This document shows, piece after piece, positions 1 through 20,100 of a stretch of 23,424 nt of DNA. The notes beneath the pieces were generated by a model. That model was not told where the DNA came from and ran no database searches. It worked only from the letters and a program-made list of their open reading frames with translations. Location of the stretch: the IMG/VR virus record IMGVR_UViG_3300007539_000232, positions 1 to 23,424 of that record. One strand, given 5' to 3'. Position numbers and translations under genes: made by a program. The number at the start of each line of letters is the position of its first letter. Positions within the stretch are counted from its first letter, which is position 1. This DNA comes from a virus.

Positions 1-132
1 ACCACGAACTTCAGCCCAGCGCAAGTCACCAGAACGATTTACACGCAGCACATCATATCCTTTAGTTCTAACAAACTGAAGGTAAAATCCCTTTTTCTTT
101 TGTTCTGTGAAAAAAGATTTAAATGTCTGCAT
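1..132 (-). CDS. Unknown small protein, N-terminal 44 residues only
   Basis: The reading frame starts with an ATG at 132 and stays open to the left edge, so the C-terminus is outside the window. The ATG shares one base with the TAA stop of the upstream 237-residue gene (TAATG), so translation is probably coupled. The protein begins MQTFKSFFTEQKKKGFYLQF and continues with a basic segment. I do not recognise the family. The first ten residues resemble the capsid-targeting leader of T4 internal proteins (Met-Lys-Thr-Tyr-Gln-Glu-Phe-Ile-x-Glu type), which the gp21 prohead protease cleaves after Glu. If so, this would be an internal head protein. The resemblance covers only ten residues and Phe replaces the usual Ile or Leu, so this is a hypothesis. 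Confidence 0.65.
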   Translation of the reverse strand, partial: MQTFKSFFTEQKKKGFYLQFVRTKGYDVLRVNRSGDLRWAEVRG

Positions 133-845
133 TAGTTGTCCAGCAAGATTAGATCAAAGATTGCACCTGCACCATTATTACCGGAAGTTGCTCTAATCTC
201 AATATCACTCTTTTCTTCCAGTTTTAAAGGAACTGAATAGTCATAAGTTACTGGTGTACCTGCTGTACCAAATTTACCTTTAATATTAAAAGAACCACCG
301 AAAGGTTTGACCATAATACTAAAATCACCTGGAGCATTTTGTGCCGATACTGATCCTTGGAACTTTTTAAGATATGCAGTTTTGTTTGCAGGGACAGTGT
401 ATAGAGCCATTAATGTTTGACCCTTCTCTGCTGAAATGCGAGCTAAGGTCTTACCATCACCGTTGATATTAATTATTTCTTCATTAGTCGAATCATTGGA
501 ACTAACCACTAATGCTCTAAACACTCTTTGAAATTCTGAAGTGCCTGTAGTTCCTGGACTTGTTACGGCTGTAATAGTTTCAGTCAGAGGTTCATAGTTA
601 GCATCTAAACCTTGAATTTCAATTTCTTTACCGCTGTCCGCAACATTTGTAGCAATAACAGTAAGAGTAGTTGCTGTGCTTGGATACTGATAGAGATTAC
701 CCGCATCCCAAATAGTTTCAGTTGTGTTGCCTACAGAAGTATTATACCCAAACTTATTGATGTGAGAAACACCTTTGGTTTGGCCATTCGCAATGCGAAT
801 AGCTTCCGCTAATTCAGAGTTGTCAAGATAACGTGAAACAGCCAT
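132..845 (-). CDS. Virion structural protein, 237 aa, marine T4-like phage family
   Basis: This 237-residue protein is rich in Thr, Ser, Gly and Asn with predicted beta character, and has no signal peptide or membrane segment. The N-terminal part reads KFGYNTSVGNTTETIWDAG followed by LYQYPS, then a QGLDANYEPLTETIT segment at about residues 78-92. I associate this pattern with a structural protein widespread in marine T4-like phages; its exact virion location is not known to me. The central LYTVPANKTAYLKKF segment is of a type found in other beta-rich phage structural proteins. The start is supported by an AAGGGA ribosome binding site. A perfect late promoter box lies 22 bases upstream of the ATG, so it probably heads its own late transcript. 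Its stop overlaps the next start by one base. Confidence 0.7.
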   Translation of the reverse strand: MAVSRYLDNSELAEAIRIANGQTKGVSHINKFGYNTSVGNTTETIWDAGNLYQYPSTATTLTVIATNVADSGKEIEIQGLDANYEPLTETITAVTSPGTTGTSEFQRVFRALVVSSNDSTNEEIININGDGKTLARISAEKGQTLMALYTVPANKTAYLKKFQGSVSAQNAPGDFSIMVKPFGGSFNIKGKFGTAGTPVTYDYSVPLKLEEKSDIEIRATSGNNGAGAIFDLILLDN

Positions 846-867
846 TGGTATCCCTTAGTTTTTAAAC

Positions 868-875
868 TATTTATA
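868..875 (-). promoter_or_regulatory. T4-type late promoter box
   Basis: The minus strand reads TATAAATA, a perfect match to the T4 late promoter -10 element recognised by the phage sigma factor gp55. It lies in the short gap between the asparagine-synthetase-like gene and the 237-residue structural gene, 22 bases before the latter's ATG. No start site data are available. Confidence 0.75.
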
Positions 876-883
876 AAATTTGT

Positions 884-1732
884 TTATTGTATCCCAAATG
901 GTATCTTTTCTCCATAATGCACAGGGAAATTGTGCGCTTCCATATATTTTTCAAAAGGAATTTTTAATTTCTCTTCAGTCGGCGTCATACCTAATGAAAA
1001 ATATTCTTTCCATACAGTGTAATCTGATAATGGAAATCGCTTCGTCATTCCTCTTGATTCATATAAAGTATTCATATCATTATAAAACTCACCCATTAAT
1101 TCATCATCGCCTGTCGAGTAAAGTTCATCAGCGCCTAAACCACTTATCACTGTAGAAGATGGAATAAAGTTTACAATAAATTCTTGTCCTCCGCCTTCAC
1201 GTAATCCATCAATAATTTCTCCGTTTACTAATTTGATTCTTTCGCTTAAAATTTTATAATTTTCAATTGATTTAATTGAAAGAACATTGAATTTTAATTT
1301 TTGTTTATGAGCAGAAGCTGTAATAACACCTGAATCATGACCGGAACTCATTGTAATGGTAGGATTGTCAGTTATTCTTAATGCAACCGCATCATCAATC
1401 GCCTGAAAGAAATCGTCGAAAGATTTTTTCTTCTTAAATCCTTGAGGATACTGATAAAATTTGCCTGAAGTTTTCCAGTTTTGCTGAAAACTGGTTATCA
1501 TATTATCTTCTAAAACAATTGTAGAATTTCTAGGTAGCTGATTGCTGGATTGTGTGCCAGCGAAATCTGTTATATAAACAGTTTTATTATCATATTCTAT
1601 TTTAATTGAATAATCGCCTTTGAGGTAACGAAAAGAAGATAATTTTTCTGCCTCCCAAATACCACAAACATCAACCGGACAAAACCCTTTAACAGTAATT
1701 TTAGCATCATTTACATAATAAATTTGATTCAT
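884..1732 (-). CDS. Asparagine-synthetase-like ATP pyrophosphatase
   Basis: The 282-residue protein carries both signatures of the AsnB / beta-lactam synthetase C-terminal domain. A PP-loop SSGHDSG lies at residues 129-135 (family SGGxDS) and binds ATP pyrophosphate. An SGLGADEL motif lies at 197-204 (family SGxGADE), the acidic active-site loop. The family activates a carboxylate by adenylation and amidates or cyclises it. AsnB exceeds 500 residues and starts with a Cys-2 glutaminase domain. Here that domain is missing or reduced to about 100 residues, where a LKGDYSIKIEYDNKTVYIT stretch resembles only its end. There is no Met-Cys start, so glutamine hydrolysis looks lost. The gene follows gp15 with a TAATG overlap; a GAGGGTGA sequence lies 12 bases before the ATG. 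It is notably AT-rich. Substrate unknown. Confidence 0.72.
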   Translation of the reverse strand: MNQIYYVNDAKITVKGFCPVDVCGIWEAEKLSSFRYLKGDYSIKIEYDNKTVYITDFAGTQSSNQLPRNSTIVLEDNMITSFQQNWKTSGKFYQYPQGFKKKKSFDDFFQAIDDAVALRITDNPTITMSSGHDSGVITASAHKQKLKFNVLSIKSIENYKILSERIKLVNGEIIDGLREGGGQEFIVNFIPSSTVISGLGADELYSTGDDELMGEFYNDMNTLYESRGMTKRFPLSDYTVWKEYFSLGMTPTEEKLKIPFEKYMEAHNFPVHYGEKIPFGIQ

Positions 1733-2514
1733 TATTCTATAGTGTCACCCTCTCCGGGATAAAGGAATGTTACTGTTGTATTAAAGTCGCTATCCCCAAT
1801 AATATTTAAATCGACAGGATTAGGCTCAACGGTTACTCTCTCAAGAAGCTCGCTGGTATTTTGATCCTTAAAGTCAACGATAGCCTTTCTAATAACCTTA
1901 GAGTCAGCAATTGGTCCAAAGAATTGAGTCTTTAGTTCAAAATCAAGAGTATAGATAATCGTTCTACGGCTTTCAAGAGTGTTTTCATAATCATCGTTAA
2001 ACGAAATACCTATGAGCGAGATAGGAATATCTTCTTTTATGTCATTATAATCGCTAAAAGGTTTCATTGTAATTGTGTATGATGGATTAAAATACGGTAT
2101 GATTTGTTCTAAAATCTGAACCGCATCCTCATTTGTCTTTGTTAAAATATTTAATTGAAAATTCAAAATATAGGGTACAGCTGTAAAAAACTTAGTTCTT
2201 ACTCCAGTGTCAGTTGAGACGAGACGAGTAAAATTATTTACTTTTGGTAGCTGTCGACTTGGATCAAAATACATCGCTGCCATTTCAAAAGACATTCTGG
2301 GCAATTTGATTGCAAGCTTGGCGTCTGCCATATCCTCAGTTTCACGGATACGATCTAAAAATTTTTGTTTCGGTGCATAACTCAAAGGCACTTTTAGTTG
2401 ATTGATAATTTGGCCTGATGAATTATTACGAATCACATAAAGATTATTGAAAAGGGTGCCGAAAACTGCAACGCACTTTCTAATTTTTTCATGATAGAAA
2501 TGTTGAGTTAACAT
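1732..2514 (-). CDS. gp15: Tail sheath stabiliser / tail terminator gp15
   Basis: The 260-residue protein matches T4 gp15 in length (272 residues) and position directly after the neck genes. T4 gp15 forms a hexameric ring that caps the tail tube and sheath and provides the surface for head joining. The N-terminal HFYHEKIRKCVAVFGTLFNN segment (residues 5-24), the later VPLSYAPKQKFLDR segment (42-55) and a central SFEMAAMYFD (75-84) are typical of this family in marine T4-like phages. The start codon overlaps the preceding TAA by one base (TAATG), and a strong GGAGAGGTGA ribosome binding site lies upstream inside the preceding gene. The stop also overlaps the following ATG by one base. No oddities were seen. 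Confidence 0.87.
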   Translation of the reverse strand: MLTQHFYHEKIRKCVAVFGTLFNNLYVIRNNSSGQIINQLKVPLSYAPKQKFLDRIRETEDMADAKLAIKLPRMSFEMAAMYFDPSRQLPKVNNFTRLVSTDTGVRTKFFTAVPYILNFQLNILTKTNEDAVQILEQIIPYFNPSYTITMKPFSDYNDIKEDIPISLIGISFNDDYENTLESRRTIIYTLDFELKTQFFGPIADSKVIRKAIVDFKDQNTSELLERVTVEPNPVDLNIIGDSDFNTTVTFLYPGEGDTIE

Positions 2515-3293
2515 TACGTCACCTCTCCGAATGGATTACCTTCACTGAAATCAATAATATCATCAGCAAATGTTTCAAATCCAGTGTTCTGTTCATTTTT
2601 CGTCAAGTTTGTAGATTCGCCTACACTTAACACTGTTCTGGTATATCTTTTATTAGTTGCACCAAAAGTAATATCTCGACCTACAACAAAATTATGATAC
2701 TTGCCATCTGAAGCGCCGACATTCACTAACTGTAAAATACCATCCTGATCAGTGTAAGAAGCTATTTCGCCTTTAATTTGAGTCCCATCAGAAAGAACCT
2801 GCGTAGCGCTGTCTCCTGGACTATACTCAGTATAGATACCCTCAAATTCAATAGCAGGATTTCTCTTATATCCGCCACCGCCAAATGTAATTGTTACGCC
2901 ATCAACTTGACCGCTTGCGTCAATTGTTGCAATGGCACGGGCAGTGAAATCAGCTGGCGTACCTGTAGCGGAATCAAAAGTTATTGACTCGTTACCAGAA
3001 CTGTTGATACTTGGGGTAACAACACTTCTTACTCCGCCCTCGCTATCAATGTTTACTAAAGCACGAACTGATGTTGCAGAATCGCCGGAATCGTAAAAAA
3101 TAGTTGCATATAATGGGTCCTGATAATAGTTCCCAGGATCATCAATAACGATTCTACTAATTGAACCGCCACTCATCACTAATGATGCTCTGGCGCCTCC
3201 TGCTTCCGCCTGAGGAGGACCAATAACTATTCTCGGCGCTGAATCATAACCGAAACCAGTATCCTGAACTGTAATTGTATTTACACGACCCAT
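2514..3293 (-). CDS. Gly-rich beta-repeat protein downstream of gp14, possibly a detached neck protein domain
   Basis: This 259-residue protein begins MGRVNTITVQDTGFGYDSAP. It contains at least three copies of a Gly-x-Gly-Tyr/Tyr-Tyr-x(3)-Pro beta module: near residues 13-20, at GNYYQDP around 53-59, and at GGGGYKRNP in the middle. The first copy closely resembles a module in the gp8-like protein of this window. There is no recognised enzymatic motif. The start codon shares one base with the stop of gp14, and no clear Shine-Dalgarno sequence precedes it. It may therefore depend on coupling to gp14 or represent a C-terminal gp14 extension in the +1/-1 frame. The position between gp14 and gp15 makes a neck or head-tail connector role likely. 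The function is inferred from context only. Confidence 0.7.
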   Translation of the reverse strand: MGRVNTITVQDTGFGYDSAPRIVIGPPQAEAGGARASLVMSGGSISRIVIDDPGNYYQDPLYATIFYDSGDSATSVRALVNIDSEGGVRSVVTPSINSSGNESITFDSATGTPADFTARAIATIDASGQVDGVTITFGGGGYKRNPAIEFEGIYTEYSPGDSATQVLSDGTQIKGEIASYTDQDGILQLVNVGASDGKYHNFVVGRDITFGATNKRYTRTVLSVGESTNLTKNEQNTGFETFADDIIDFSEGNPFGEVT

Positions 3294-3880
3294 TAGGTTA
3301 TACTCAACTTTGCTTTTGCTCGGCGAAGTGGCGTAACGCCAACATTATAGTTATAAGCATACTTTTCTTCGACTTCATCAATAACTTCCGTACCAGTATC
3401 AAAGTCTTCACCAGCGTATTCGAACAACTCAATTTCCATACGGAAAGTCGGAAGATCTTGTATTTGATAGAATGGACGGTCATCAATGACTCGCATAATT
3501 TCAAAAATCTGATCAGAGAGCGGTAGGTAAATAAGATCGCCTTCTCTTGGTCTATTGTAATCAACGTTAAGACCTACAGCAAATTCCCAACGCCTTCTTG
3601 AAACATGAAGCGTAGCTCTGTCCCTAATTTCAACACCGAATTTAGTGAACAGTTCTTGATCCCCATCAAAGCCTTCAATGTTTTCCAAATACATTTCAAT
3701 AGTATATGCATCGTCAAACCTTGATACAGCGTCTTCCCCAAATATTTTATCTTCATTGACAAGTGATCTTGGAAGATACTCAACATCTTGTCCATAAATT
3801 TTTAAGGACTCAATGATAATATCTTCATAAAGATTTTGTTCTGACCTTACTGACTGGGATATATGAGGATTGCGAGCCAT
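3293..3880 (-). CDS. gp14: Neck protein gp14
   Basis: The 195-residue protein begins with NPHISQSVRSEQNLYEDIIIES, then IYGQDVEYLPR at about residues 29-39, a hallmark of the gp14 neck protein of T4-like phages. In T4, gp14 with gp13 completes the head-tail interface after DNA packaging. The acidic central part and a VGVTPLRRAKAKL end fit the family. T4 gp14 has 256 residues, so this copy is short. The next gene starts on its stop codon and may supply a domain that is fused elsewhere. An AGGATAAGG ribosome binding site precedes the ATG, which is three bases after the gp13 stop. Order gp13-gp14-(extra gene)-gp15 matches T4 apart from the insertion. Confidence 0.87.
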   Translation of the reverse strand: MARNPHISQSVRSEQNLYEDIIIESLKIYGQDVEYLPRSLVNEDKIFGEDAVSRFDDAYTIEMYLENIEGFDGDQELFTKFGVEIRDRATLHVSRRRWEFAVGLNVDYNRPREGDLIYLPLSDQIFEIMRVIDDRPFYQIQDLPTFRMEIELFEYAGEDFDTGTEVIDEVEEKYAYNYNVGVTPLRRAKAKLSIT

Positions 3881-12901: not shown

Positions 12902-12909
12902 TATTTATA
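12902..12909 (-). promoter_or_regulatory. T4-type late promoter box
   Basis: The minus strand reads TATAAATA in the 45-base gap between the 170-residue gene and the beta-helix fibre gene, 33 bases before the fibre ATG. It is a perfect match to the T4 late -10 element. Confidence 0.75.
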
Positions 12910-13826: not shown

Positions 13827-13834
13827 TATTTATA
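13827..13834 (-). promoter_or_regulatory. T4-type late promoter box
   Basis: The minus strand reads TATAAATA in the 52-base gap after the small helical gene, 39 bases before the ATG of the 115-residue protein. It is a perfect match to the T4 late -10 element and would separate the AT-rich enzyme block from the next structural unit. Confidence 0.75.
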
Positions 13835-13839
13835 TTGAG

Positions 13840-14064
13840 TTATTTTCCATCATCAGTCATTCTTGTAATTAAATCTTTTAACAAAGATTCAATGGTATCC
13901 ATTCGCTGCTCAATGCGTTCAATTCTATTTTGTTCTTTCTTCTTTGCTTCTTTTTGAGCTCTTGCCTTCATCAAAGCGTTTTTATCGGTATTTATAATCG
14001 CATTTGATGATGCATCCCTAAAAAGGCCATTCGAATTTTCAACTGGAATAAGTTTCTTGCTCAT
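13840..14064 (-). CDS. Small coiled-coil protein conserved in T4-like marine phages
   Basis: The 74-residue protein begins MSKKLIPVENSNGLFRDASS, then NAIINTDKNALMKARAQKEA. It finishes with a charged helical segment, IERIEQRMDTIESLLKDLI at about residues 49-67, with a clear heptad pattern. I associate the N-terminal L-x-x-V-x-x-x-x-x-L-x-R-D-x-x-x-x-A-I-[IL]-N pattern with a small conserved protein of T4-like cyanophages of unknown function. The start overlaps the stop of the glycosyltransferase gene as ATGA, with no strong ribosome binding site, so it is probably translated by coupling. A multimeric adaptor or chaperone is conceivable given the coiled coil and location, but nothing in the sequence proves it. 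Confidence 0.7.
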   Translation of the reverse strand: MSKKLIPVENSNGLFRDASSNAIINTDKNALMKARAQKEAKKKEQNRIERIEQRMDTIESLLKDLITRMTDDGK

Positions 14065-14786
14065 GCTACAGATATTGTTTTCGAATAGTGGTAAATAATA
14101 ATTTCGTCTTCTTCATTTATATGCTTTGCCTTTTGATACAAGGGTAACCAATTCCATAATATGTCATTTGGAAAAAAGTCATATTTTAGTTTGTATTTAT
14201 TCCATTCTTTATTCGTTAGCCACCAAAGCGAGAATTGATCCCATGCCCTAAATCTTATTGGGTAAAGTTCTAAATCAGGCCACCATTTTTTGTCTCTAAT
14301 TTTTTTATCTAATTTGTACCAATCTGACATAAATTTTTTAGCTGAAGACTTGTACAAGCAAATCCCGCCGTGTAATTTAAATTCGCCACCAGGGAATACT
14401 CTGTTATTACCATGCTTATGGTTGTATGCGTACTCTTGTTCTTTGGTGATCCTTGTCCAAAGCATATCATTGTTGCCAATTAAATCGAAAACTTCAGAAA
14501 ATTGATCATTCACAACAGCCATATCGCAATCCATATAAAGCGTTAAATCATAGGGACTGTTGGCCATTGCCCATAATTTTGTTCTATATTCATTTGGACA
14601 TTCTGTGATAACATTTTCAAACAAATTATTATGTGATTCATCATGATAATCTGCGTTAGTAAACAGAGTTATTTTAGCGTCAGGTAAATATTCTTGAATT
14701 GTATTGGCGCAAAATATTGCTTTTAAATAATATTCTCTGTTAAGGGTCGCAACAAGAACAACGCCTTTACTCAAAATCCAGCTCAT
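14061..14786 (-). CDS. GT8-like glycosyltransferase (GT-A fold)
   Basis: The 241-residue protein has the layout of a GT-A nucleotide-sugar transferase related to family 8. Residues 8-16 (GVVLVATLN) form the first beta strand and nucleotide-binding region. LYMDCDMAV at 83-91 holds the Asp86-x-Asp88 metal-binding motif. HGGICLY at 139-145 matches the acceptor-side strand (family pattern N-x-G). WDQ at 182-184 is the usual Asp-Gln, and IIIYHYS with His233 is the C-terminal metal ligand position. It would transfer a sugar from a nucleotide donor; donor and acceptor are unknown. It lacks a signal peptide or membrane anchor. It overlaps the oxygenase-like gene by 20 bases and the small coiled-coil gene by four, and lies among virion genes. 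A fibre or tail protein acceptor is plausible inference. Confidence 0.72.
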   Translation of the reverse strand: MSWILSKGVVLVATLNREYYLKAIFCANTIQEYLPDAKITLFTNADYHDESHNNLFENVITECPNEYRTKLWAMANSPYDLTLYMDCDMAVVNDQFSEVFDLIGNNDMLWTRITKEQEYAYNHKHGNNRVFPGGEFKLHGGICLYKSSAKKFMSDWYKLDKKIRDKKWWPDLELYPIRFRAWDQFSLWWLTNKEWNKYKLKYDFFPNDILWNWLPLYQKAKHINEEDEIIIYHYSKTISVA

Positions 14787-15405
14787 TTTTTAGATTTTCC
14801 CACATATATGCGCTATTGTCATCAGGCAAAAAACGCCAAGCTAGACTAATACGTAAACAATTGGTGTAAGCCGCATGATAAAAAGGAGGCTTGTCTTCTG
14901 TGTATGATGGAAAATATGACATCTTAATTTGCCAGCCAGGAACATCCTGAACTTTTACTGTGTTGTTATTTTCATCACGGTATAGAAAATATCCATCGCC
15001 TGTTTCTGACCAAGTCGCTAACAGATTATATCCAGGAGCATCAGCATTATTATGCCAAGAAATTCCTCCTTCGGGTGGATAAAGCGCAGCTAAAGGGCAA
15101 TGATAAGTGCCTAAAAAGGTTTGCATTTCTCTATGCAAAGGGGCAAGCTCGGTTGAGATTTCTAACGCTTTGTCATCATTTATTAGCCGTAACATATAAT
15201 CAACTTCTGGCTTACCTTTATGTAAGGTATGTTGTTTTATAATATAATCACAGTATTTTTCTGATACATGAGTTTTATCAAAATTTTGATGATTAATAAA
15301 TTCCAGAGATTCTTTGTTTGTTTTATACCACTCTAATATAATCGAAGAAAAATTATTTAAATATTCATTAAATTCTTTATTCTTCGATGTCACCTGTGTC
15401 AGCAT
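14767..15405 (-). CDS. Double-stranded beta-helix protein, 2-oxoglutarate/Fe(II) oxygenase-like
   Basis: The 212-residue protein has a helical N-terminal half and a C-terminal jelly-roll pattern. GGISWHNNADAPGYNLLATW at 113-132 is followed by GYFLYRDENN, then GWQIKMSYFPS, FYHAAYT and LRISLAWRF. This order closely resembles a family of marine phage proteins annotated as 2OG-Fe(II) oxygenases (Trp-His-x-Asn...His...Arg-x-Ser). Candidate metal ligands are His118, Asp122 and His177; Arg185 could bind 2-oxoglutarate. The His-x3-Asp spacing is not the canonical His-x-Asp, so activity is uncertain. It overlaps the coiled-coil gene upstream by 29 bases and the glycosyltransferase by 20. The start is favoured by a GGAAGAAAAG sequence. 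The substrate is unknown; hydroxylation of a virion protein or a sugar are both possible. Confidence 0.6.
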   Translation of the reverse strand: MLTQVTSKNKEFNEYLNNFSSIILEWYKTNKESLEFINHQNFDKTHVSEKYCDYIIKQHTLHKGKPEVDYMLRLINDDKALEISTELAPLHREMQTFLGTYHCPLAALYPPEGGISWHNNADAPGYNLLATWSETGDGYFLYRDENNNTVKVQDVPGWQIKMSYFPSYTEDKPPFYHAAYTNCLRISLAWRFLPDDNSAYMWENLKNELDFE

Positions 15406-17116: not shown

Positions 17117-20100
17117 TTATGTACCGAGTGCAATAGCCCTTAAATCTCTGAAGGTTGGCACTTTAGAACTATTTGAACTCCGCATCACAATCTTTAATTG
17201 GAAGGTAGTGAAAGGAACAAGGTCTCCCCCAAGTCCGCCGATCGTATATTCATAATCACGGTAAACATTTCTATCCTCATCAGTTTGAACGATCGTCTCT
17301 TGGGATGCCAACACATAAGAAACATCGTTAATATTTATATCTTCCCCCGCAGAGATAGTTCTGTAGTATAAATCAAAATTAGCATTATCAGGACGATTTG
17401 CGCCGATAAGAACCTTTAATCCAACAGCTGGTTGTTCTAAACTAATTGGCCGTGTAATATGCTTAGAAAGATGTGAACCGCTTTGTGGATCAGTTTCATC
17501 AACCCATGTCAATGGATTATTCAACGGCGAAACAACGGAAGCGTCAGAATCTTGATTATCAATCAAGTTGTTTTCTGCGATAATACCAGTGCGGCTCATT
17601 AATATTACAGGTGAAACAAAATCACTTGTTGTAGTCAAATTAGCAACAATTTTAAGTGATCTTCTAGGATCGCCAGCAGCTAATAATGTTGCCTCTGTAT
17701 TTTCAATTGCTCTATGTGCAATAACTTTTGGTGATTCAAAGTCAATAGGCTCAAACGGATTGATAGCTCTTGAACCACTAATAGCGTATGTATTTGTAGG
17801 AGAAGAGAAACTTCTACCCTCAGCGAATGAGCCATTGTAAGTAATTCTTGCTTCAGGAACTGGGATAAACGATTCAATCGTCGGGAATAAGGTATCCATC
17901 TGAATATTATCAGTGAAGGTAATTTCACTTCCATCGGCGTTACCAACCAGCACACTAGAAGTTGCGGCGCTATCAGCTTGGAATGTGAAGCCTGTTCCAT
18001 CAACTTTTACAACAGTTCTTTCGCCTTGTAAGGAAGTACCTGTGATTCCTCCAAAGTCGCCTGTAGAGTCTACACCAGTTAGCGTTACCTTATCCCCTAC
18101 ACCAAGGCCATGACCTCTGGAGAAGACTGTAACGGAGCTATCTCCCGAAGCTGTTAAGAATGGACTTGGGTCAAGAATCTGATCAGGGTAATCAATATTT
18201 TCAAGGACTGCTGTGCCAGAAGAAACAAATTTAGCTCTATGCACTTTGAACATCATATCTCTTGTTTGATCTGGTGTCCAAGTAATTGCATTTTGCGAAA
18301 GGAAAAGAGAACCTAAGCTTGGCTGCTGTCTTACTCTCTGAGTTGTAGTGCCTATTACAAGATCACCAGCTTTAGCCACATATACGTTATAATCTAACGT
18401 ATCAGCCATTAAGACAAATGCTACGTTCGTTCCGCCAGGAATATAAACTGGGCTTGGGAATGCGAACCGAGTAGGAGCTGCGAGAATCGAAGCTAAATCA
18501 TCAGAATCTGCTGGTAAGTTTACGCTAGTCGCAGGAACAGTAACTGAAGAGCCAGTGAAAATTTCATTTTGACTTGGGACGCCATTGCGTAATGGACGAA
18601 CTTCTAATTTTACTGGAATATTAGCATCGACTCCTGTTGGTTTAGATGAAAAATAAACATCAATTCCTGTAAGGAAAGCGCCAGTATCTTGGGCAATAAC
18701 GAAAGATTGGGCTAACGGATCTCTTCCTAAAGGAGGAATCGTCGTAATAAATACGGTCCCTTCTACTCTAATTGTTCTTACAGTTCCTTCGCCGAAGTAA
18801 GATGCAAACGCTGAAGATTGCGAAGCGGCATCATTATTAACGCTAATATCTAAGAGTTTTACTTCACGCTCGCCACGCTCAAATCTCAAAGAATCGTTAT
18901 TTGGCACCAAGAAAGATCCAATAATTTCCCCTGATGCATCAGAAATAAGAGGTGTGGTTCCTACTGGATCAGGGTGCGTTGTAGCACGGCTGTTAATATA
19001 TTGATCTTGAAGCCTTCTCGAAAATGCCGTGAAGAATGTTTCTTCCTTCGCATATGAACTAATGTGCTCGCCATCAAAGAACAAGAAGTGTTGAGTTAAA
19101 GGACGTAAACCTTCAGCTTTAAATCTTACCAATCTGGAACGTATAAAAGGTAACAACCGAATTGAAACGGTAGTACGTGTTGTCTGTGTAGTTTCCACCA
19201 AGGTAAGTCCTGCGCTTCCTGCCCTTGGTCTGTCTGGAGTATTTTGTCGACCGCCTCTAAACCGCTCAAAAAATTCAAAACGATTTAAACGAACACGAGT
19301 CACTCCCCCGCCTACTCTACGTGTTACTGTGAAAATATCGGTTTCAGGCTCTAAACGTAAAGATCCTACGAATGTAATAACTTCAAATGGGTTAATATTT
19401 TCAGTCTCAGTCGCCAAAGTCTGAGTGATAAAAGAATCTTCTGTGTAATCAAGATGAACAAAATTTTCGCTTAATGCGGTGCCAGTGTTTGCAGCATCAG
19501 CGGAATCATATCCTAGTGGAACTGATTTAATAGCAACGTCTGAGTTAAGTCTACCTGTTCCTAAATCAAAGGTAGCAGTATATGCAGAATCATTTACATT
19601 AGAATATGCCATTGTGACAAAGTTATCTGCAAACAATCCATTTTTAAAACGATTCACTCCATTGGAATCTAAAACTTCAATACTTTCAGTTTGCGTTTCT
19701 AGCAGATTTAATGTCGTGACTTCCTCAAGATTTTCAATTCTTTCTACAATGTCAGAAATATCACGCATGGTGTAATTGCGGTTTTCGACAAAATACTCTT
19801 CAACATCTAATTCATTATCAGTAAACGGATTTAAACGATATTCTTTAATTTTAAGAGCAGTCTGTGGTGGCCTTGGAGTAATTCTGTTATCGAGCGCTGG
19901 CACACCTTGAATGTAACTAATAGTCTTATTTTGGTCGATGACGAGAATATCGTTTCGACCTTGATAGTAAATAACGTCAGCAGTGATAGTATCAGTGTTC
20001 TGCGGTAACTCATTAAGGTTTGCTACAGACACGGTAGAAATCGCATCACCATTTGATTCAATATATGGTCTAAAGTCTAAAACATTACGGAGCTCAACAG

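Follow-up and report, generated by a model that had tools for sequence, protein, structure and literature searches.

The stretch of DNA analyzed here, referred to as the window, is a 23,424-base IMG/VR virus record from a T4-like phage. Its main genes lie on the minus strand and encode tail-fibre-like proteins, gp13/gp14-type neck proteins, gp15, an AsnB-like protein, and a protein of the phrog_8198 family. The features at and around the AsnB-like gene are given below in window coordinates.

1732..2514, minus strand: gp15 tail sheath stabiliser (PF16724, E 6.7e-71)
1730..1734, minus strand: TAATG overlap of the gp15 stop (TAA, 1734-1732) and the AsnB-like start (ATG, 1732-1730)
884..1732, minus strand: compact AsnB-like protein of 282 residues, ATG start (ORF call, homologs, and model)
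868..875, minus strand: TATAAATA, a T4-type late promoter core after the AsnB-like gene and before the next gene
132..845, minus strand: phrog_8198 family protein, the next gene, annotated in some phages as a virion or tail fibre protein

An earlier note on this DNA had described a 282-residue protein with SSGHDSG and SGLGADE motifs, no Cys2, and a TAATG joint to gp15, all of which was confirmed in the sequence. The stop-to-stop frame of the gene spans 286 codons, leaving approximately 4 extra in-frame codons upstream of the start, and therefore no glutaminase domain is hidden there. This open frame, together with orthologs of equal length, also ruled out a truncated gene call or a frameshifted AsnB. 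The gp14 gene appears to be split, as two ORFs that share one base match different parts of the head-closure profile phrog_460 (ORF 3293-3880, positions 14-202; ORF 2514-3293, positions 226-377). Within the tail gene run, at 14061-15405, an ORF that resembles glycosyltransferases, with an MDCDMAV motif but without a credible Pfam match, overlaps an oxygenase-like ORF that resembles 2OG-Fe(II) oxygenases and weakly matches phrog_274 (E 0.003).

Searches with Pfam, PHROGs, NCBIfam, and phage BLAST all miss the window protein, so that surveys of metabolic genes in phages are likely to pass over such genes. Indeed, the Pfam Asn_synthase profile PF00733 gave an E value of 0.25 and 11.4 bits, below its gathering cut-off of 21 bits; a short relative in contig L190 reached 24.9 bits. 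No PHROGs match, no PDB sequence match, and no phage BLAST match at E 0.01 was obtained, and the single NCBIfam match was noise. Weak Pfam/NCBIfam matches to the STIV turret protein, a CdiA tRNase, and a dipeptidase were also judged to be noise. GATase_7 had no match in the window protein or in the window record, and our search of the open-access literature found no description of a glutaminase-less phage AsnB.

The structure of the window protein was predicted with AlphaFold2 from an alignment of 34 sequences, limited to the window and the scanned loci (pLDDT 89.4, pTM 0.90). The first 15 Foldseek matches to this model were beta-lactam synthetase (top), AsnB, human ASNS, and CarA. VIA-align superposed the model (range 1-282) on E. 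coli AsnB (1ct9) with a Z score of 22.2 and an rmsd of 2.9 Å over 274 of 282 residues, in an alignment that starts at AsnB residue 48 and extends end to end. Scores were similar for beta-lactam synthetase (1jgt, 21.7) and TsnB9 (21.6), followed by human ASNS (20.5-21.1) and CarA (17.4-18.0). Other folds, including GMP synthetase and LarE, scored 11.7 or less and mostly aligned from residue ~100 onward, without the N-terminal part. The protein is thus almost certainly, as judged from the predicted model, a member of the AsnB-superfamily two-domain fold, which joins an Ntn half to an N-type ATP pyrophosphatase. The AsnB and beta-lactam synthetase scores are tied, so the fold cannot choose between the two. 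The parts of the protein map as follows.

1433..1732, minus strand: residues 1-100, distal-half remnant of an Ntn glutaminase domain, with Cys2 and the first half missing (profile, structural alignment)
884..1432, minus strand: residues 101-282 plus stop, N-type ATP pyrophosphatase (synthetase) domain (model, Foldseek, structural alignment)
1328..1348, minus strand: PP-loop SSGHDSG, residues 129-135
1124..1144, minus strand: SGLGADE, residues 197-203 (AsnB counterpart SGEGSDE)
1136..1138, minus strand: Leu199, aligned with E. coli E348 and human E364 (Leu in 9 of 9 distinct short members)
905..907, minus strand: Lys276, corresponding to human K466 and beta-lactam synthetase K443 (invariant; from structural-alignment ends)

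Four parts of AsnB have no counterpart in the short protein: the glutaminase domain's first half, the segment ahead of SGLGADE, the helices that lie between SGLGADE and RFPLSD, and ~100 residues at the C terminus. The window protein therefore possesses neither the N-terminal Cys nucleophile nor a complete glutaminase domain, and the loss of glutaminase activity proposed earlier agrees with the missing Cys2 and GATase_7 match. The accompanying statement that the whole domain is absent needs correction, as residues 1-100 correspond to its distal half. This half contains three motifs that are invariant among the short members, GFCP (16-19), YITD (53-56), and LPRNST (66-71). It should be noted that Cys18 of GFCP (window 1676-1687) lies near the aligned Asn-Gly-Glu loop of AsnB.

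Besides the window, the short gene was found in 18 viral contigs, encoding proteins of 276-309 residues with identities down to 39%. One of these contigs (L001) encodes a protein identical to that of the window. A scan of gp15-containing viral contigs (80 loci) placed the AsnB-like gene directly after gp15 in six, with 63-65% identity to the window protein, and scans with short-family alignments reached the distant members (39-45% identity, 276-309 residues). The nearest homologs are thus equally short; full AsnB proteins as nearest homologs of a truncated gene call, the outcome that the earlier note had named as contrary to its reading, were not what was seen. The nine distinct short sequences share 61 invariant residues and group together in a phylogenetic tree as a single clade with 100/100 support, whose long branch lies next to the full-length phage proteins. 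The L105 and L108 genes differ with a dN of 0.07 and a dS of 0.90 (dN/dS ~0.08), values that indicate purifying selection. A recent pseudogene was ruled out by the single clade and this low ratio. Within a known enzyme class, this family is a reduced subfamily that is conserved in marine T4-like phages and has apparently escaped annotation.

A single scan of 84,980 species genomes for an origin in a sequenced host detected no relative, nor did a plasmid scan, both being absences only at the sensitivity used. Photo_RC, searched as a psbA-type clue to the host, had no match in 13 fragmentary records. A glutaminase acting in trans was also sought, and 12 of the 13 records, most of them fragments, had no GATase_7 match; the exception came from the record of L212, where the match was to a separate AsnB-like protein of full length. 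This record, G012 (L212 / L213), carries a short AsnB-like gene as well as this full-length protein, which has SGGLDSS. Of note, the window and L001 differ at 1 of 849 bases in the AsnB-like gene and at none in the 38-nt spacer (together window 846-1732), and at 61 of 714 (13 amino acids) in the next gene (window 130-845), and this abrupt change in divergence suggests a recombination boundary near the spacer.

The nearest named relative of the window protein is the 440-residue "asparagine synthase" of Synechococcus phage S-SCSM1 (QFG06388.1; BLASTP 5e-8), and full-length AsnB-like relatives of 410-450 residues are present in many viral contigs. The S-SCSM1 protein and its IMG/VR relatives share with the short members the C-terminal domain, which in the full-length proteins carries SSGYDSG as PP-loop, SGSGSDE, RYPYLD, and a terminal Lys-x-Gly-Phe. 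They differ in possessing Cys2 and the full glutaminase domain, with 22-28% identity to the short family, in having Q, S, T, M, or G where the short members have Leu at the E364 position, and, for S-SCSM1, in the location of the gene in a glycan cassette. With phmmer, the window protein matched full-length phage AsnB-like proteins at 4e-15 (in a database of the retrieved loci only), and the short-family profile matched 26 full-length family proteins at 2e-29 to 5e-21. By contrast, the same profile gave E 0.77 against E. coli AsnB, within the range of shuffled sequences, and its sole credible PDB match was beta-lactam synthetase (1.2e-4), in which the pairing of residues 1-100 with beta-lactam synthetase 102-140 is weak alone (i-E 110). 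A joint profile of short and full-length proteins matched 1ct9 at 9e-35. The link of the short members to AsnB thus goes via the full-length phage family and the fold. Their assignment to the AsnB class, as first proposed, is borne out by the fold match and by the phmmer match to the full-length relatives; these two results and the Foldseek search rule out a chance motif.

Residue invariance was scored over the 34 short and full-length sequences. The invariant positions are R119, S129, G131, D133, S134, G135, E157, G198, G200, D202, E203, R232, D237, K257, and K276, and all short members carry S[SC]G[HV]DSG and [SL]GLGADE. K276, which is invariant in these 34 sequences and in the nine short sequences, was equated with the catalytic lysine (K449 in E. 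coli AsnB) from the ends of the structural alignments (276-443 in 1m1z, 274-464 in human ASNS) rather than from inspected coordinates, and it was not aligned by MAFFT against AsnB alone. In human ASNS, K466 is a conserved residue essential for AS-B catalysis (PMC6748925). The machinery for carboxylate adenylation therefore appears to be kept, judging from the invariance of the ATP/PPi motifs and of K276, and the loss of ATP-binding residues that the earlier note had set against its own reading was not seen, as these residues are intact. The aspartate pocket is a different matter. Its acidic pair, D351/E352 in E. coli and D367/E368 in human, is retained as D202/E203, but the Glu at E. coli 348 / human 364 is absent: the window protein has Leu199 there, and each of the nine distinct short members has Leu. 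The Arg-403 equivalent is also not Arg, from a hand reading of the AsnB alignment. With the ATP motifs and K276 kept, and E364 and its flanking segments altered, the nucleotide half of the site is preserved and its aspartate end changed.

The genomic context proved to be less constant than the protein. Functional coupling to gp15 had been proposed from the TAATG joint, yet the gene is not next to gp15 in 11 of the 18 other contigs. Two of these T4-like records contain gp15 at another site, 58 kb from the AsnB-like gene in G005 (gp15 at 42.4 kb, AsnB-like gene at 100.7 kb) and 79 kb from it in G007 (94.4 kb and 14.4 kb), and even the gp15-adjacent orthologs vary at the joint (a 4-nt gap in L108, a GTG overlap in L105). 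In L192, L194, and L197, the gene overlaps an exonuclease-like gene by 29 nt, and other members overlap or abut other small ORFs. Equally tight packing against unrelated genes indicates that phage genes are normally packed in this way and that the tightness does not mark a partnership. Most other gp15 loci scanned run straight from gp15 to gp16 or have unrelated cargo between them. The gp15/gp16 boundary (window 1-1732; L105-L184) is itself a variable insertion site in marine T4-like phages, holding the AsnB-like gene, the phrog_8198 protein, Gly-rich proteins, a LamG-like protein (L129), tail-fibre-like proteins, or nothing.

In L001, L105, L106, and L108, the distance from the AsnB-like gene to the TATAAATA core that follows it is fixed, and the core thus serves the next gene; late expression of the AsnB-like gene of the window might plausibly come about by read-through. 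The window contains five TATAAATA cores (868-875, 12902-12909, 13827-13834, 13989-13996, and 17332-17339), all on the coding (minus) strand, when 2.2 would be expected on both strands. The 108 neighbors of the full-length relatives include nucleotide-sugar epimerases, GDP-mannose dehydratases, several glycosyltransferase families, methyltransferases, and carbamoyltransferases; glycosyltransferase, epimerase, sulfotransferase, and radical SAM genes are also found near the distant short members. No glycan cassette flanks the gp15-adjacent members, and the glycosyltransferase-like and oxygenase-like ORFs of the window are located ~12 kb away.

Taken together, we lean toward the reading that these proteins form a reduced, glutaminase-less phage AsnB subfamily of acyl-adenylate-forming amidotransferases whose substrate is other than free aspartate. 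We consider it probable that the window protein is an active adenylating enzyme and, with similar confidence, that it is not an asparagine synthetase. The predicted enzyme would bind Mg-ATP and adenylate a carboxylate, releasing PPi, and the resulting acyl-AMP would be attacked by free ammonia or an amine to give an amide and AMP. The short enzyme would not be able to produce its own ammonia from glutamine. Its acid substrate is unlikely to be free aspartate, since every short member has Leu at the E364 position, and the human E364A and E364Q variants are inactive with aspartate, ATP, and ammonium (PMC6748925). The full-length relatives sit in nucleotide-sugar and glycosyltransferase cassettes, which makes a carboxylate on a sugar or glycan the likeliest ancestral substrate, as in the uronamide formation of the WbpS/WbqG type. 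By this analogy with neighboring genes, a sugar or glycan acid is our best single guess for the substrate, albeit a tentative one that the gp15-adjacent members, with no such cassette beside them, speak against. A somewhat more speculative possibility is that half of the glutaminase domain was lost once, giving rise to a minimal class of phage amidotransferases. In these, the remaining half would have become a new substrate-docking part (GFCP with Cys18, LPRNST), and a phage- or host-specific acid (a glycan, nucleotide, or protein) unused by known AsnB-class enzymes would be amidated or coupled.

An enzyme that amidates or crosslinks a protein or peptide carboxylate, such as a virion Asp or a C terminus, appears unlikely. 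The deleted segments may open the active site, AsnB-class enzymes acting on peptide carboxylates, including peptide C termini, exist (TsrC, ScdTA, and PesC; PMC13060819), and the gp15-adjacent members sit in a run of virion genes. However, the gp15 neighborhood is not conserved, no conserved partner gene was seen across the contexts examined, and nothing found points to the virion Asp suggested earlier. We regard as slightly less probable still an ammonia-dependent asparagine synthetase that would serve as an auxiliary metabolic gene supplying asparagine in infection. The AsnB fold, the ATP site, and the retained D202 and E203, which are compatible with an amino-acid-like substrate, speak for it, and human ASNS can use ammonia (PMC11615228), but the Leu at the E364 position, where Ala or Gln inactivates the human enzyme even with ammonium (PMC6748925), the deletion of the segment before SGLGADE, and the non-Arg residue at the Arg-403 position all argue against it. 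The earlier conclusion that ordinary asparagine supply is unlikely thus stands on the Glu-to-Leu change, and not on the reasons first given for it, namely tail coupling and late expression. More generally, the biochemical inference of that note was reasonable and its genomic argument was not.

The loss of one domain half and of the key Glu could also suggest a catalytically dead remnant retained as a structural or regulatory partner. This is improbable, as members only 39% identical all keep the ATP motifs and the catalytic Lys unchanged, which would be unexpected if ATP chemistry had been lost. A lactam- or lasso-type ring-forming enzyme is very improbable indeed: beta-lactam synthetase is the top Foldseek match and the only credible PDB match of the short profile, but VIA-align ties it with AsnB, and no biosynthetic cluster was noticed nearby. 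The partners of lasso cyclases (precursor peptide and protease genes) were not noticed among the neighbor genes examined, and the Tyr of the Tyr-Glu catalytic dyad of beta-lactam synthetase presumably occupies a position that does not match Leu199.

The favored reading, a reduced amidotransferase acting on another acid, would make this family, if active, a small glutamine-independent amide-forming enzyme. It is a natural case of reduction of the AsnB fold, with ~280 residues instead of 554 and a strictly conserved ATP-activating core, and because of the Glu-to-Leu change, the choice between asparagine and another acid can be put to a direct test. Among known systems, WbpS and WbqG, which are described as AsnB-like amidotransferases converting uronic acids to uronamides (PMC7468200), set a precedent for the amidation of a sugar carboxylate by AsnB-class enzymes, a likeness drawn from their description; the cited passages mention no reduced form. 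E. coli AsnB (1ct9) shares with the window protein the fold, the PP-loop Asp, SGxGxDE, and the catalytic Lys, but it is twice as long, has the Cys1 nucleophile and E348, and keeps the internal and C-terminal segments that the window protein lacks. Beta-lactam synthetase (1jgt, 1mbz) belongs, like the proposed enzyme, to the AsnB relatives that make a product other than asparagine, and differs from it by a longer N-terminal domain and an intramolecular amide product.
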